DNA from: Halanaerobiaceae bacterium | GTDB taxonomy: Bacteria; Bacillota; Halanaerobiia; Halanaerobiales; Halarsenatibacteraceae | Assembly (NCBI GenBank): GCA_003553225.1 | Contig: PWDW01000190.1 | Location: forward strand, 1 to 64,000 | Length of the DNA stretch: 64,000 nt | Direction of reading: 5' to 3' | In this document: positions 52,220-56,471 of the stretch, piece by piece | How the letters are laid out: each line of letters begins with the position of its first letter | Numbering within the stretch: the first letter of the stretch is position 1 | The notes under the pieces: generated by a model | Databases searched by the model: none | What the model saw: only the letters and a program-made list of their open reading frames with translations | What the model was told of the DNA's origin: nothing | Made by a program: the position numbers and the translations under genes

Positions 52220-54430
52220 CTATATTCTATATACAATCTCCATATATATATCACTGAAAAAACCAAAAACCTGTTCCACCAGATTGAAAAACAATAAACC
52301 AATAAACATGGTTAATGTTATGCCCAGAATTATTGCTCCCGTAACCAAAAGCATTTTTGTGGCTGTATATTCGTGGATGGTTAAAGTTCCAAAAAACAAA
52401 AGAATGAAAGCCCAGACTGCTGACATTACCAGAATAAAAAGATAAAACATATGCTCTTCACCGGTCAAATAATTGCTGATAACTGTCAGGGGAATATTAA
52501 TAAAAGCCACAGGAATTAAGGAATAAGCTGTTGTTATATAAATTTCAGTAAAAGTGCCTTTACCCTCCATCAGGGTGGTTAAGGACCAGCTGACCACACA
52601 CCATAAAAAGAAGGGGATAAGTACACTGGCAATCTCCACCAGGGTATTTAACTCTGTCAGGTCCCGGGGATTAAAGATGAAACCGGTATACTGTCTCATA
52701 AAGATAAAGGTTATAATTACGATAATTAAATGGAAAGTGGCAGCAGCAATACTCTTTGGTTTTTCATGTTTAAGATTCCAGAAACCCCCTACCGGATGAA
52801 AAATTACCTGAAATCCATAGAAAAAGAGATCAACTGTTTTTTTGAGTGCATCATATATTAAACTTACAACAGTGATTTTTTCGGATTCATTATTATTTCG
52901 GTTCCCAAATCTATTTTCTAATTTTTGGTTAATTTTTTCCAGATATCCCAGAACCGGGGCCCGAAATTTAATTATCAAAAATAACAATACAGCAATAATT
53001 AACAGCAGCAATCCAATTAATGTTATATTCTCCTCTATTACTTCTTTACGATAATGAACAAAGGCCCGGGAATAATCCAGTCTGTTTTCACCCCGGCGGA
53101 AATTATTCATAGCGGCTTCAAAATTATCCTGAAATAATTCTCCTCTACCAATACCGGTATAGGCCAAATCATAATTGGCATTCAAACGCAGTACTTCCCG
53201 CCAGATGTCAACGGATCTCTGGTAGGAGCCACTATGATAATAATCCAGGGCCTGGTGGATCTTCCGGGCATATTCTGTAGGTTTAAAAACCGTAATCCTA
53301 TTTGTCTGGCCATCCAGTACTGCCAGTTTTTCCCCCTGAGCTTCAACCGCCCGTGGGTAACGGAAACCGCCTTTGAGATGACCATCATAACCAAATACAT
53401 AAAGTAAATTTCCTCTTCTATCATAGGTGAAAACTCTACCTCTTCTGCGATCAAGTACACTATACATTTCATTTTCCCTTACGGTAATATCCACAAATAC
53501 AGAGCCGGGAATCACATACTCCCCCGCTGCATCCATTAAAGTAGATCCATAATCACCACGGGGAGGAGTAAAACCCTCTCTTAATAAGATATCCCGTCCG
53601 GCTGTATTCAGCTTTCTGATAAAATGTTCTTCCCCAATTGTCCCCGTAGCCACTGTTGTAAACACAAAACCTTCCCTGTCAACATCCAGATTACTGAATT
53701 CTGTGGGTAAAAACAGGGCCAGACGTTCTCTGCGCTCCTGAGGTGAATAACGCCTCCATATATATTCAAAAAGATCCACCGTAACCGAAGGTGCTCCAAA
53801 AAATCCTACAAATTCACCTCTGATATCAAACTCCATAATTCCTTCATAAACCTCATCTGCAACTACAAAAATCCTGTTTCTCCTGTCAACTGCAATTTTG
53901 GAGGGGCGAAAACGAAAATCGGTAAAATCTACATCTCCCACCTGACCTTCGGGAGAATGGATTATATTCTTTAAGTTAAGCTCCTGATCCAGGATTACTA
54001 TCCGCCCATTATCCCGGTCTGTAATATATAAATCACCGGCCGGATTGGTATAAATTCCCCGGGGATTATTAAAAAAATCTTCTTCTCCTCTGTTAGTAAA
54101 ACTATCTATGATTCTTTTTACCGTCCAGTCCGGATTTAGCTCAATAATCCGGTTATTACCACTATCTACAATGTAAATATTTTGATTATAACTGCTGATG
54201 TGTAAATCTCTTGGCTCTGATAAAGAGCCCGCTCCCAGATCTTTACCGGTTATTATCTGGTCCGGGTAATAAGCCTGGGGGGCTGAAACCGGTTCTTCCC
54301 AAAAATCATATATATAACTGGGATATGGTATATCCAGATTTTCGGAATCCAGAGTACTGCCCTGTATATCTAAAGAAAATATAAATAAAAGAAAGAATAT
54401 TAAAAAAAGAAAATAAAAACTTTTTTTCAT
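52220..54430 (-). CDS. NHL-repeat/Yip1 membrane protein
   Basis: A 736-residue protein, first of the operon. An N-terminal signal/anchor (SFYFLFLIFFLLFIFSLDIQ) is followed by NHL-type beta-propeller blades (about 60-390; for example LSEPRDLHISSYNQNIYIVD, FNNPRGIYTNPAGDLYITDR), a TPR-like pair (about 395-450), a membrane helix (about 470-490), and a C-terminal Yip1-like domain with five helices (about 530-730). The ribosome binding site is weak. A propeller sensor outside plus a multi-helix membrane domain suggests a scaffold for the transporter; its function is unknown. Confidence 0.78.
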   Translation of the reverse strand: MKKSFYFLFLIFFLLFIFSLDIQGSTLDSENLDIPYPSYIYDFWEEPVSAPQAYYPDQIITGKDLGAGSLSEPRDLHISSYNQNIYIVDSGNNRIIELNPDWTVKRIIDSFTNRGEEDFFNNPRGIYTNPAGDLYITDRDNGRIVILDQELNLKNIIHSPEGQVGDVDFTDFRFRPSKIAVDRRNRIFVVADEVYEGIMEFDIRGEFVGFFGAPSVTVDLFEYIWRRYSPQERRERLALFLPTEFSNLDVDREGFVFTTVATGTIGEEHFIRKLNTAGRDILLREGFTPPRGDYGSTLMDAAGEYVIPGSVFVDITVRENEMYSVLDRRRGRVFTYDRRGNLLYVFGYDGHLKGGFRYPRAVEAQGEKLAVLDGQTNRITVFKPTEYARKIHQALDYYHSGSYQRSVDIWREVLRLNANYDLAYTGIGRGELFQDNFEAAMNNFRRGENRLDYSRAFVHYRKEVIEENITLIGLLLLIIAVLLFLIIKFRAPVLGYLEKINQKLENRFGNRNNNESEKITVVSLIYDALKKTVDLFFYGFQVIFHPVGGFWNLKHEKPKSIAAATFHLIIVIITFIFMRQYTGFIFNPRDLTELNTLVEIASVLIPFFLWCVVSWSLTTLMEGKGTFTEIYITTAYSLIPVAFINIPLTVISNYLTGEEHMFYLFILVMSAVWAFILLFFGTLTIHEYTATKMLLVTGAIILGITLTMFIGLLFFNLVEQVFGFFSDIYMEIVYRI

Positions 54431-54690: not shown

Positions 54691-54719
54691 ATTATACACT
54701 TAAACAGACCAATTGTCAA
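54691..54719 (-). promoter_or_regulatory. Perfect-consensus promoter of the NHL-Yip1/DUF5696/ABC operon
   Basis: On the minus strand TTGACA (54714-54719), 17 bases, TATAAT (54691-54696), an exact sigma-A match. It gives a leader of about 255 bases before the first gene. Confidence 0.75.
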
Positions 54720-54831: not shown

Positions 54832-54965
54832 TGGCTCGATTAAAATTCGGTAATTGAAAAGTTAAAAACACAATAAAAGTATTGATAATAGAGGAATTAA
54901 ACTGTAGATATAGAATTAATAAAATAAGAAGTTATGCCGTATAAAAAATTAAGGAGGAATCAAAT

Positions 54966-55907
54966 TTGTTCATTATTACTGTATCACGTCAGACGGCCAG
55001 TGGAGGAGATGAAGTAGCTGAATTGCTGGCCGAAAAACTGGGGGTAGAATTAATCTCCCGGGAATATGTAATCAACAACTGGCTGCCGGAAGTAACCAAT
55101 AAACACCAGCTTCATATGTTAAAGGAAAGCCCAAAATTTTATAATAAACAGTCCCAGACCGGAGAAACCTTTGCTGAATATATTGAAAACAGACTGAAAG
55201 AGAAAACAGCAGAAGATTCATTTATAATTCTGGGGCTTGGTTCACAGATAATTTTTGCCACCACACCTGCCGCCCTTCATGTCCGCATTATTGCCTCTGA
55301 AAAAAGCAGAATCCAAAAACTGCAGAAAAATTATGGTCTGCAAAAAGAACAGGCCGAACGCAGTCTGGAGCTCAGTGACCGCAAACACAGAAAATATGTC
55401 TGGAGAATATATGAACAGGACTGGTCAGAACCACATCTTTATCACCTGTGTGTAAATATGGATGGCTTTGCTGTTGAAGAAGCGGTAAATCAGATTATTT
55501 ATCTTCAGGAACAGCATAAAAACCGGCCGGGATCCCGGCCTTTAAAACAAACAGGGACCGAACAGGAAACCGAAGATGAAGATAAAAATGAAAACAACCG
55601 TGTATTTGCCCATCCCAGTGAGAAAGAATTTGCCCAAATACTAAATATGCATAACATTGAATGGGAATTTGAACCCACAGAATTTCCTCTGGAATGGGAT
55701 GCAGAGGGAAATATCTCCCTGGGTTTTAGACCTGACTTTTATCTTACCCAGCACGACACGTATATTGAATTAACAACCCTGAAACAGGAGTATGTAACTG
55801 AAAAAAATAAAAAAGTCCGGCTTTTACAAAAACTATATCCGGAAGTAAATATTAAAATAGTATACAAAAAAGATTTTCAGTCAATAATTGAACGTTTTGG
55901 AGTCTAG
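54966..55907 (+). CDS. Cytidylate kinase-like protein fused to a PD-(D/E)XK-like domain
   Basis: A 313-residue protein from a TTG start (AAGGAGGAATCAAA before it). Residues 1-185 look like the cytidylate-kinase-like P-loop family: ITVSRQTASGGDEVAELLAE (with SGG in place of the usual GSGG loop), GLGSQIIF, and an ELSDRKHRKYV lid-like Arg/Lys segment. A charged linker (187-211) leads to a domain (215-313) with PSEKEF (219-221), RPDFYL (Asp257) and YIELTTLK (Glu268), the arrangement of a PD-(D/E)XK nuclease fold, although the third residue is Thr270 or Lys273. It lies 30 bases before the HPRT-like gene. This fusion suggests nucleotide sensing linked to nucleic-acid cutting; the function is unknown. 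Confidence 0.75.
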   Translation: MFIITVSRQTASGGDEVAELLAEKLGVELISREYVINNWLPEVTNKHQLHMLKESPKFYNKQSQTGETFAEYIENRLKEKTAEDSFIILGLGSQIIFATTPAALHVRIIASEKSRIQKLQKNYGLQKEQAERSLELSDRKHRKYVWRIYEQDWSEPHLYHLCVNMDGFAVEEAVNQIIYLQEQHKNRPGSRPLKQTGTEQETEDEDKNENNRVFAHPSEKEFAQILNMHNIEWEFEPTEFPLEWDAEGNISLGFRPDFYLTQHDTYIELTTLKQEYVTEKNKKVRLLQKLYPEVNIKIVYKKDFQSIIERFGV

Positions 55908-55937
55908 TTTTTAAAAAAAATACCGGGGAATGATATT

Positions 55938-56471
55938 ATGAATACTGATAAAATAGGTAAAATAATTCTCTCCCAAAAACAAATTGCAGAAAAAATAAAA
56001 AAAATGGCAGCCAGAATAGAGGATGATTACCAGGAAAAAAATCCGATAATGGTCAGTATTTTAAAAAGTTCTATTTACTTTTTGTCTGATCTAACACGAG
56101 AAATGTCAATTTCTTTAAATATTGATTTTTTGGGTATAGAACGATATGCAGCAGCAGATAATAGAGGACAAATCCATCTGGAAAAAAACCTTGAACTAAG
56201 TATTGATGGTCGTCATGTCATAATAGTAGATGCCATAATCAATACCGGATTAACACACAGTTATTTAATAAAAAATCTGCAGCCCCGCAGTCCGGCCAGC
56301 CTGAAAATATGTACTTTAATTGAAAATACAGAAAAAAGGCTGGTAAACCTTCCCATCTCCTACCGGGGGTTTACTTTCACAGACCCCGATATCTTTGTAA
56401 TCGGTTATGGACTTGATTATGAAGAAAATTACCGGCATCTGCCATATATTGCTGAATTTAATAAAGATTAA
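55938..56471 (+). CDS. HPRT-like phosphoribosyltransferase with altered PRPP loop
   Basis: A 177-residue type I phosphoribosyltransferase. IMVSILKSSIYFLSDLTREM, DFLGIERYA, RGFTFTDPDIFVIGYGLDY and YRHLPYIAEF follow the HPRT pattern for purine base salvage. The PRPP loop reads VDAIINTGLT (97-106), where HPRT has (E/D)DIIDTG: Asp99 is Ala and the general-base Asp is Asn102. Activity is thus doubtful or shifted. It is 30 bases after the kinase/nuclease gene, so the two likely form one operon. GGGGAATGATATT precedes the ATG. Confidence 0.8.
   Translation: MNTDKIGKIILSQKQIAEKIKKMAARIEDDYQEKNPIMVSILKSSIYFLSDLTREMSISLNIDFLGIERYAAADNRGQIHLEKNLELSIDGRHVIIVDAIINTGLTHSYLIKNLQPRSPASLKICTLIENTEKRLVNLPISYRGFTFTDPDIFVIGYGLDYEENYRHLPYIAEFNKD

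Follow-up and report, generated by a model that had tools for sequence, protein, structure and literature searches.

A PD-(D/E)XK-like domain paired with a second HPRT paralogue: a possible new nucleotide-linked system

The locus and the domains of the fusion protein

The window, a stretch of 64,000 nucleotides from a Halanaerobiaceae bacterium, contains a pair of genes that is flanked by unrelated genes and stands alone. The first gene (54966..55907, + strand) encodes a kinase-like/PD-(D/E)XK-like fusion protein of 313 aa. Its start codon is TTG, located behind a strong AAGGAGG site; this ribosome-binding site (aaggagg) and its spacer were read directly from the sequence at 54949..54965 of the same strand. 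The second gene (55938..56471, +), encoding the 177-aa protein HPRT2, similar to hypoxanthine phosphoribosyltransferase (HPRT), is separated from the stop of the first by exactly 30 bases. The arrangement was described in the initial annotation with the right coordinates, and matches to Pfam and TIGR01203 bear out the families named there. A sigma-70 site with a 12/12 consensus match (TTGACA-17-TATAAT) is present on the opposite strand at 54691-54719; it faces an NHL-repeat/YIP1-like gene (52220-54430), away from the pair.

The fusion protein was modelled at full length by AlphaFold2 with a mean pLDDT of 89.6. Its residues 3-166 (54972..55463, +) match PF13189 Cytidylate_kin2 with an E-value of 1.9e-34 and a score of 119.8 bits against a Pfam cut-off of 28. 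The domain has a P-loop kinase fold with structural matches to 3fdi, 3hdt and CMP kinases (TM-score 0.89 to 3fdi_A, normalised by target); the nearest solved structures, 3fdi and 3hdt, are uncharacterised structural-genomics entries. Unlike those proteins, the window protein carries an additional C-terminal nuclease-like domain, and only a remnant of the P-loop, ASGGDEVA, is found in its N-terminal part. The lysine of the Walker A motif GxxGxGK[ST] was found in none of the 51 aligned kinase domains, its position being occupied by an invariant glycine (Gly14). Since this lysine is absent family-wide, kinase activity of the PF13189-like domain cannot be assumed. The kinase-like region (54966-55463) also shows a weak match (1.1e-5) to the viperin-associated kinase (pVip-kinase) of PADLOC, a hint that kinases of the PF13189 type may have nucleotide monophosphates as substrates in other systems.

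The segment 55464..55595 (+), delimited by AlphaFold2 confidence and secondary structure, comprises helix 170-185, with which the kinase-like fold ends, and a charged linker; model quality is poor at linker residues 196-204. The linker is followed by the PD-(D/E)XK domain, similar to T7 endonuclease I (55596..55904, +). Scanned singly, the window protein falls below the Pfam cut-off for the T7 endonuclease I family of PD-(D/E)XK Holliday-junction resolvases (PF05367), residues 211-302 giving only a weak Phage_endo_I match (E 0.009). A family profile built from 26 relatives and searched against the PDB gave its best match to T7 Endo I (3cae; E 1.5e-5), with further Endo I entries matching at 0.001-0.004. 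The fold search with the whole protein was dominated by kinase matches, and the domain was therefore folded and searched separately. Folded alone, it was predicted by AlphaFold2 (pLDDT 85.4) to have the element order alpha-beta-beta-beta(-beta)-alpha-beta-alpha, that of the PD-(D/E)XK core. The most probable Foldseek matches of the domain in the PDB are PD-(D/E)XK nucleases (probability 0.96-0.99) with modest E-values of 0.012-0.1, none better than 0.012; the best ones include the homing endonuclease I-Bth0305I, R2 endonuclease, Vsr, Bax1, PspGI and PvuRts1I. Assignment of the C-terminal domain to the PD-(D/E)XK class, already proposed in the initial annotation, is thus supported by sequence profile and predicted structure taken together, the structural E-values alone being weak; the structure prediction gave no non-nuclease fold.

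Three acidic residues of the domain, Glu219, Asp257 and Glu268, are invariant in 51-53 sequences from several phyla. They align with Glu20, Asp55 and Glu65, the acidic metal ligands of T7 Endo I; the following helix and the YP region align as well. Two of the active-site residues proposed earlier, Asp257 and Glu268, are therefore retained, but the third, Glu221, gives way to Glu219 as the equivalent of T7 Glu20: Glu221 is kept in about 90% of sequences and lost in Actinobacteria. Unlike T7 Endo I, no aligned member of the family has the ExK lysine two residues past Glu268 (the equivalent of T7 Lys67), and Thr270 is invariant at this position. Because of this substitution the domain may lack nuclease activity, and since the canonical catalytic lysine is missing family-wide, such activity cannot be assumed. 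The helix following Thr270 carries the invariant Lys280 and Lys283, which, together with the invariant acidic triad, suggests a kept active site in which the lysine may have been relocated. The domain also differs from T7 Endo I in its cellular setting and in its partners, PF13189 kinase-like and HPRT proteins to which it is fused or with which it is paired. Two distant PD-(D/E)XK relatives in the same class were recovered at loci L018 (G056:C3) and L019 (G024:C13); the L018 protein, resembling a homing endonuclease, retains the lysine (VEIKSEY), in contrast to the domain described here.

Pairing of the domain with a second HPRT paralogue

A search of 84,980 species genomes recovered 525 relatives of the domain, and the best 80 were kept. 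An HPRT gene on the same strand accompanies the domain in 76 of these 80 loci. Among the four apparent exceptions, L069 shows the start of an HPRT gene before an assembly gap and L080 runs to the end of its contig; L119 genuinely lacks a paired HPRT and is an exception, and L131, with no HPRT nearby, is likely another. The partner is therefore present in 77 of 79 testable loci among the best 80 of 525, a figure biased towards the closest relatives. In a separate sample of an actinobacterial group, the domain was found in 93 of 198 genomes. In the 30 best loci of this group, HPRT lies directly downstream of the domain in 18 and upstream in 10, separated from it by a DUF151 gene of nuclease type and in some cases also by a MerR gene; three of these 10 upstream genes became visible only once the loci were extended. 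The two loci cut by contig ends were left out, and in all 28 testable loci of the best 30 HPRT adjoins the domain or lies within a few genes of it.

A single protein of Thermomicrobium roseum, annotated as an ordinary hypoxanthine phosphoribosyltransferase, contains both the domain and HPRT. The Firmicutes version of the domain shares its polypeptide with the PF13189 kinase-like domain. The pair occurs in at least Bacillota, Actinomycetota and Thermomicrobiota, and one locus lies on a contig labelled Methylomirabilota. Its presence is patchy inside the order, and none of seven relatives from the window's own family has the module. Operonic in Actinobacteria and Firmicutes and fused in Thermomicrobium, the link between the domain and HPRT is real rather than due to chance. 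The initial annotation had suspected as much from other lineages, and the neighbourhood survey found adjacency to be the rule.

Another finding, which was not part of the earlier claims, is that the paired HPRT is a dedicated second paralogue. The window genome encodes a canonical hpt elsewhere (220 bits), and both a canonical and a paired HPRT are present in all 34 domain-bearing genomes tested. Among 299 genomes from the phylum, 27 of the 31 with the domain have at least two HPRTs, as against 11 of the 268 without it (Fisher p 1.7e-25, which overstates the evidence as the genomes are not independent; the 31 domain-bearing ones span 22 genera). The four domain-bearing genomes with fewer than two HPRTs are incomplete or contig-broken. 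A phylogeny of 87 HPRTs separates the canonical copies, united in a single supported clade (SH-aLRT 98), from the paired copies. Conserved across phyla and, wherever copies were counted, additional to the canonical hpt, the paired HPRT points to an overlooked core function in an enzyme considered fully understood, and the functional annotation of many genomes may be incomplete or wrong, as with the T. roseum fusion. Two genomes, G091 and G354, have three HPRTs each, and G091 also has two copies of the nuclease-like domain, so that whole modules may have been duplicated. In family f65 of the phylum (G119, G157, G190, G219, G291), which lacks the domain, there are two HPRTs with high and nearly equal scores; they apparently go back to a separate, unrelated duplication of the canonical hpt.

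HPRT2 of the window is homologous to canonical HPRT over its whole length and passes the curated TIGR01203 cut-off (155.8 versus 150). The GYGLDY region is retained, as is the phosphate-binding loop TGLT, present in nearly all relatives. The alterations noticed in the initial annotation are evident in loop III, which reads VDAIINTGLT in place of VEDIIDTGLT, and in the presence of asparagine at the positions of both the catalytic Asp137 and the purine-contacting Lys165 (human numbering). In human HPRT, Lys165 contacts O6 and N7 of the purine, Asp137 contacts N7, and Thr138, Gly139 and Thr141 contact the phosphate (PMC2228302). Few paired HPRTs are as strongly altered as the window copy. In the window genome and in Halanaerobium, the acidic pair of loop III is eroded, with DA or EN replacing ED, and this should weaken the ribose/PRPP contacts.

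The loss of residues in HPRT2 tracks the kinase fusion. Lys165 is kept in 21/21 canonical HPRTs, in 14/16 partners of the domain lacking the kinase (mostly actinobacterial), and in none of 78 kinase-linked pairs. For Asp137 the respective counts are 21/21, 15/16 and 18/78, the 60 replacements in kinase-linked pairs being Arg (42), Gly (15), Asn (2) and Lys (1). The Thr138/Gly139/Thr141 phosphate loop is conserved nearly everywhere. On the HPRT tree, the changes of Lys165 and Asp137 between kept and lost require three and two steps, respectively, indicating a few events fixed in large clades rather than many independent losses. As their catalytic residues are retained, the paired HPRTs of Actinobacteria are probably still active phosphoribosyltransferases.

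In Firmicutes, no neighbour beyond the pair itself is common to the lineages examined. In Actinobacteria, the pair belongs to a core chromosomal cluster of FHA, MerR, adenine phosphoribosyltransferase, DUF151 and glycine-cleavage genes, named by sequence reading and similarity between loci rather than by family search. The cluster presumably resembles the garA-ftsR region of Mycobacterium. Viral contigs, 2.9 million in number, yielded one distant relative of the domain, and a viral origin was rejected on this ground. No PADLOC defence system matches the domain pair. Near the pair in the window, Rfam searches revealed no riboswitch for purines, PRPP or (p)ppGpp; in 12 related loci they recovered unrelated elements and nothing else.

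Possible functions of the pair

All parts of the module come from known families, and in the window's version each of the three parts lacks residues that define catalysis in its family. The idea of a nucleotide-linked system put forward in the initial annotation stands, but not that of working kinase and nuclease activities, both canonical catalytic lysines being missing family-wide. The open-access literature searched on the pairing, PF13189 and the cytidylate kinase-like family yielded no account of such a module, and the near-obligate association of the domain with HPRT appears to be undescribed. If a function were shown, the pair could represent a new kind of system.

The module is best read as a housekeeping one, retained over long evolutionary times. 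Its key features are a T7-Endo-I-like PD-(D/E)XK domain almost always partnered by a dedicated second HPRT paralogue, and a kinase-linked HPRT in Firmicutes that no longer has the residue reading the 6-oxo group, in most cases lacks the catalytic aspartate as well, and keeps the TGLT loop. Loop III of HPRT binds PRPP and (p)ppGpp (PMC6783271), and PurR of Bacillus is a phosphoribosyltransferase fold turned into a regulator controlled by PRPP/(p)ppGpp (PMC8789054). By analogy with PurR, the most likely role of the paired HPRT in Firmicutes is that of a subunit that binds a ligand and thereby controls an output domain of nuclease-like type. The HPRT-like subunit would have been repurposed from an enzyme to bind PRPP, purine nucleotides or alarmones in a complex with the kinase/nuclease-like protein; the bound ligand would act as a switch on the PD-(D/E)XK-derived module, changing its state of nucleic-acid binding or cleavage, and nucleic-acid processing would thereby be tied to purine status. 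In Actinobacteria, the same partner would be served by an HPRT subunit that is probably still an active phosphoribosyltransferase. That the pair is a chromosomal regulatory module of this kind is our leading, tentatively held explanation. Its more specific form is doubtful: the pair would represent a widespread new class of cellular switch in Firmicutes and Actinobacteria, its pseudo-HPRT sensing PRPP, purine nucleotides or alarmones and thereby gating a PD-(D/E)XK-like effector on a kinase-like scaffold, so that purine status would be linked directly to RNA/DNA processing.

The likeness to PurR lies in the phosphoribosyltransferase fold, the kept phosphate loop, the presumed loss of catalysis and a partner domain of nucleic-acid-binding type. 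Unlike in PurR, whose partner domain is a winged helix, the PD-(D/E)XK-like partner here sits on a different polypeptide, and the phosphoribosyltransferase is of the HPRT type. Two observations weaken the analogy: in Halanaerobiales the acidic pair is eroded, and in Actinobacteria the catalytic residues are intact; since the actinobacterial members retain the full HPRT set, the ancestral role may not have been purely regulatory. The lack of a riboswitch near the pair, the missing module in the seven relatives from the window's family and Thr270 also count against a sensor-effector role. If the pair does act as sensor and effector, it would parallel PurR in the conversion of an enzyme into a regulator, with a nuclease fold as output.

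A salvage or repair pathway is a rather unlikely alternative. The PD-(D/E)XK domain would cleave damaged or unusual nucleic acid, HPRT2, its 6-oxo reading altered by the change of Lys165 to Asn, would use a different base, and the kinase-like domain would phosphorylate the resulting monophosphate. The three activities would form a logical chain, consistent with the fold relation of PF13189 to CMP kinases and its match to the PADLOC viperin-associated kinase, with the order HPRT-BFN (DUF151 nuclease)-domain in Actinobacteria, and with an actinobacterial HPRT2 that is catalytically intact by its residues and adjoins an adenine phosphoribosyltransferase in the L121/L104 clade. However, it would be odd for the members of a pathway to have lost catalytic residues in all three cases: the Walker A lysine (51/51) and the ExK lysine (all aligned members) are missing, and the catalytic aspartate of HPRT is replaced in most kinase-linked pairs.

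It is unlikely, too, that the nuclease-like domain is dead and serves as a protein-protein or allosteric module controlling or scaffolding the HPRT paralogue, with no nucleic acid involved. The invariant threonine at the position of the ExK lysine and the strict pairing with HPRT, fusion included, agree with this role, but against it stand an acidic metal-binding triad invariant in 53 sequences of several phyla and the invariant Lys280 and Lys283 on the next helix, which suggest a kept site.

Anti-phage defence, one of the roles considered in the initial annotation, or a toxin-antitoxin function, in which a nucleotide-sensing HPRT-like protein would act with a nuclease effector, is very improbable: the nuclease, kinase and phosphoribosyltransferase domains resemble those of defence effectors, the kinase-like domain weakly matches pVip-kinase and the distribution inside the order is patchy, but PADLOC recognises no system, viral relatives are essentially absent, the pair has a fixed housekeeping position in the core FHA-MerR-gcv cluster of Actinobacteria, and no common neighbour hints at a mobile island in Firmicutes. 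Inheritance of neighbours in an operon with no joint function, conceivable for the actinobacterial pair inside its larger conserved cluster, is the least credible explanation, given that the pairing persists in unrelated gene surroundings in Firmicutes, tolerates reversed or spaced order in some Actinobacteria, reaches fusion in T. roseum and is accompanied by HPRT2 residue loss that follows the kinase fusion.

In many Actinobacteria (loci L179-L181, L184, L185 and L188-L191, and also L174 and L176), the genes are arranged in the order FHA-MerR-HPRT-DUF151 (bifunctional nuclease)-MerR-PD-(D/E)XK domain-gcvPA. This order places two nuclease-type proteins and an HPRT in a core glycine-cleavage cluster.
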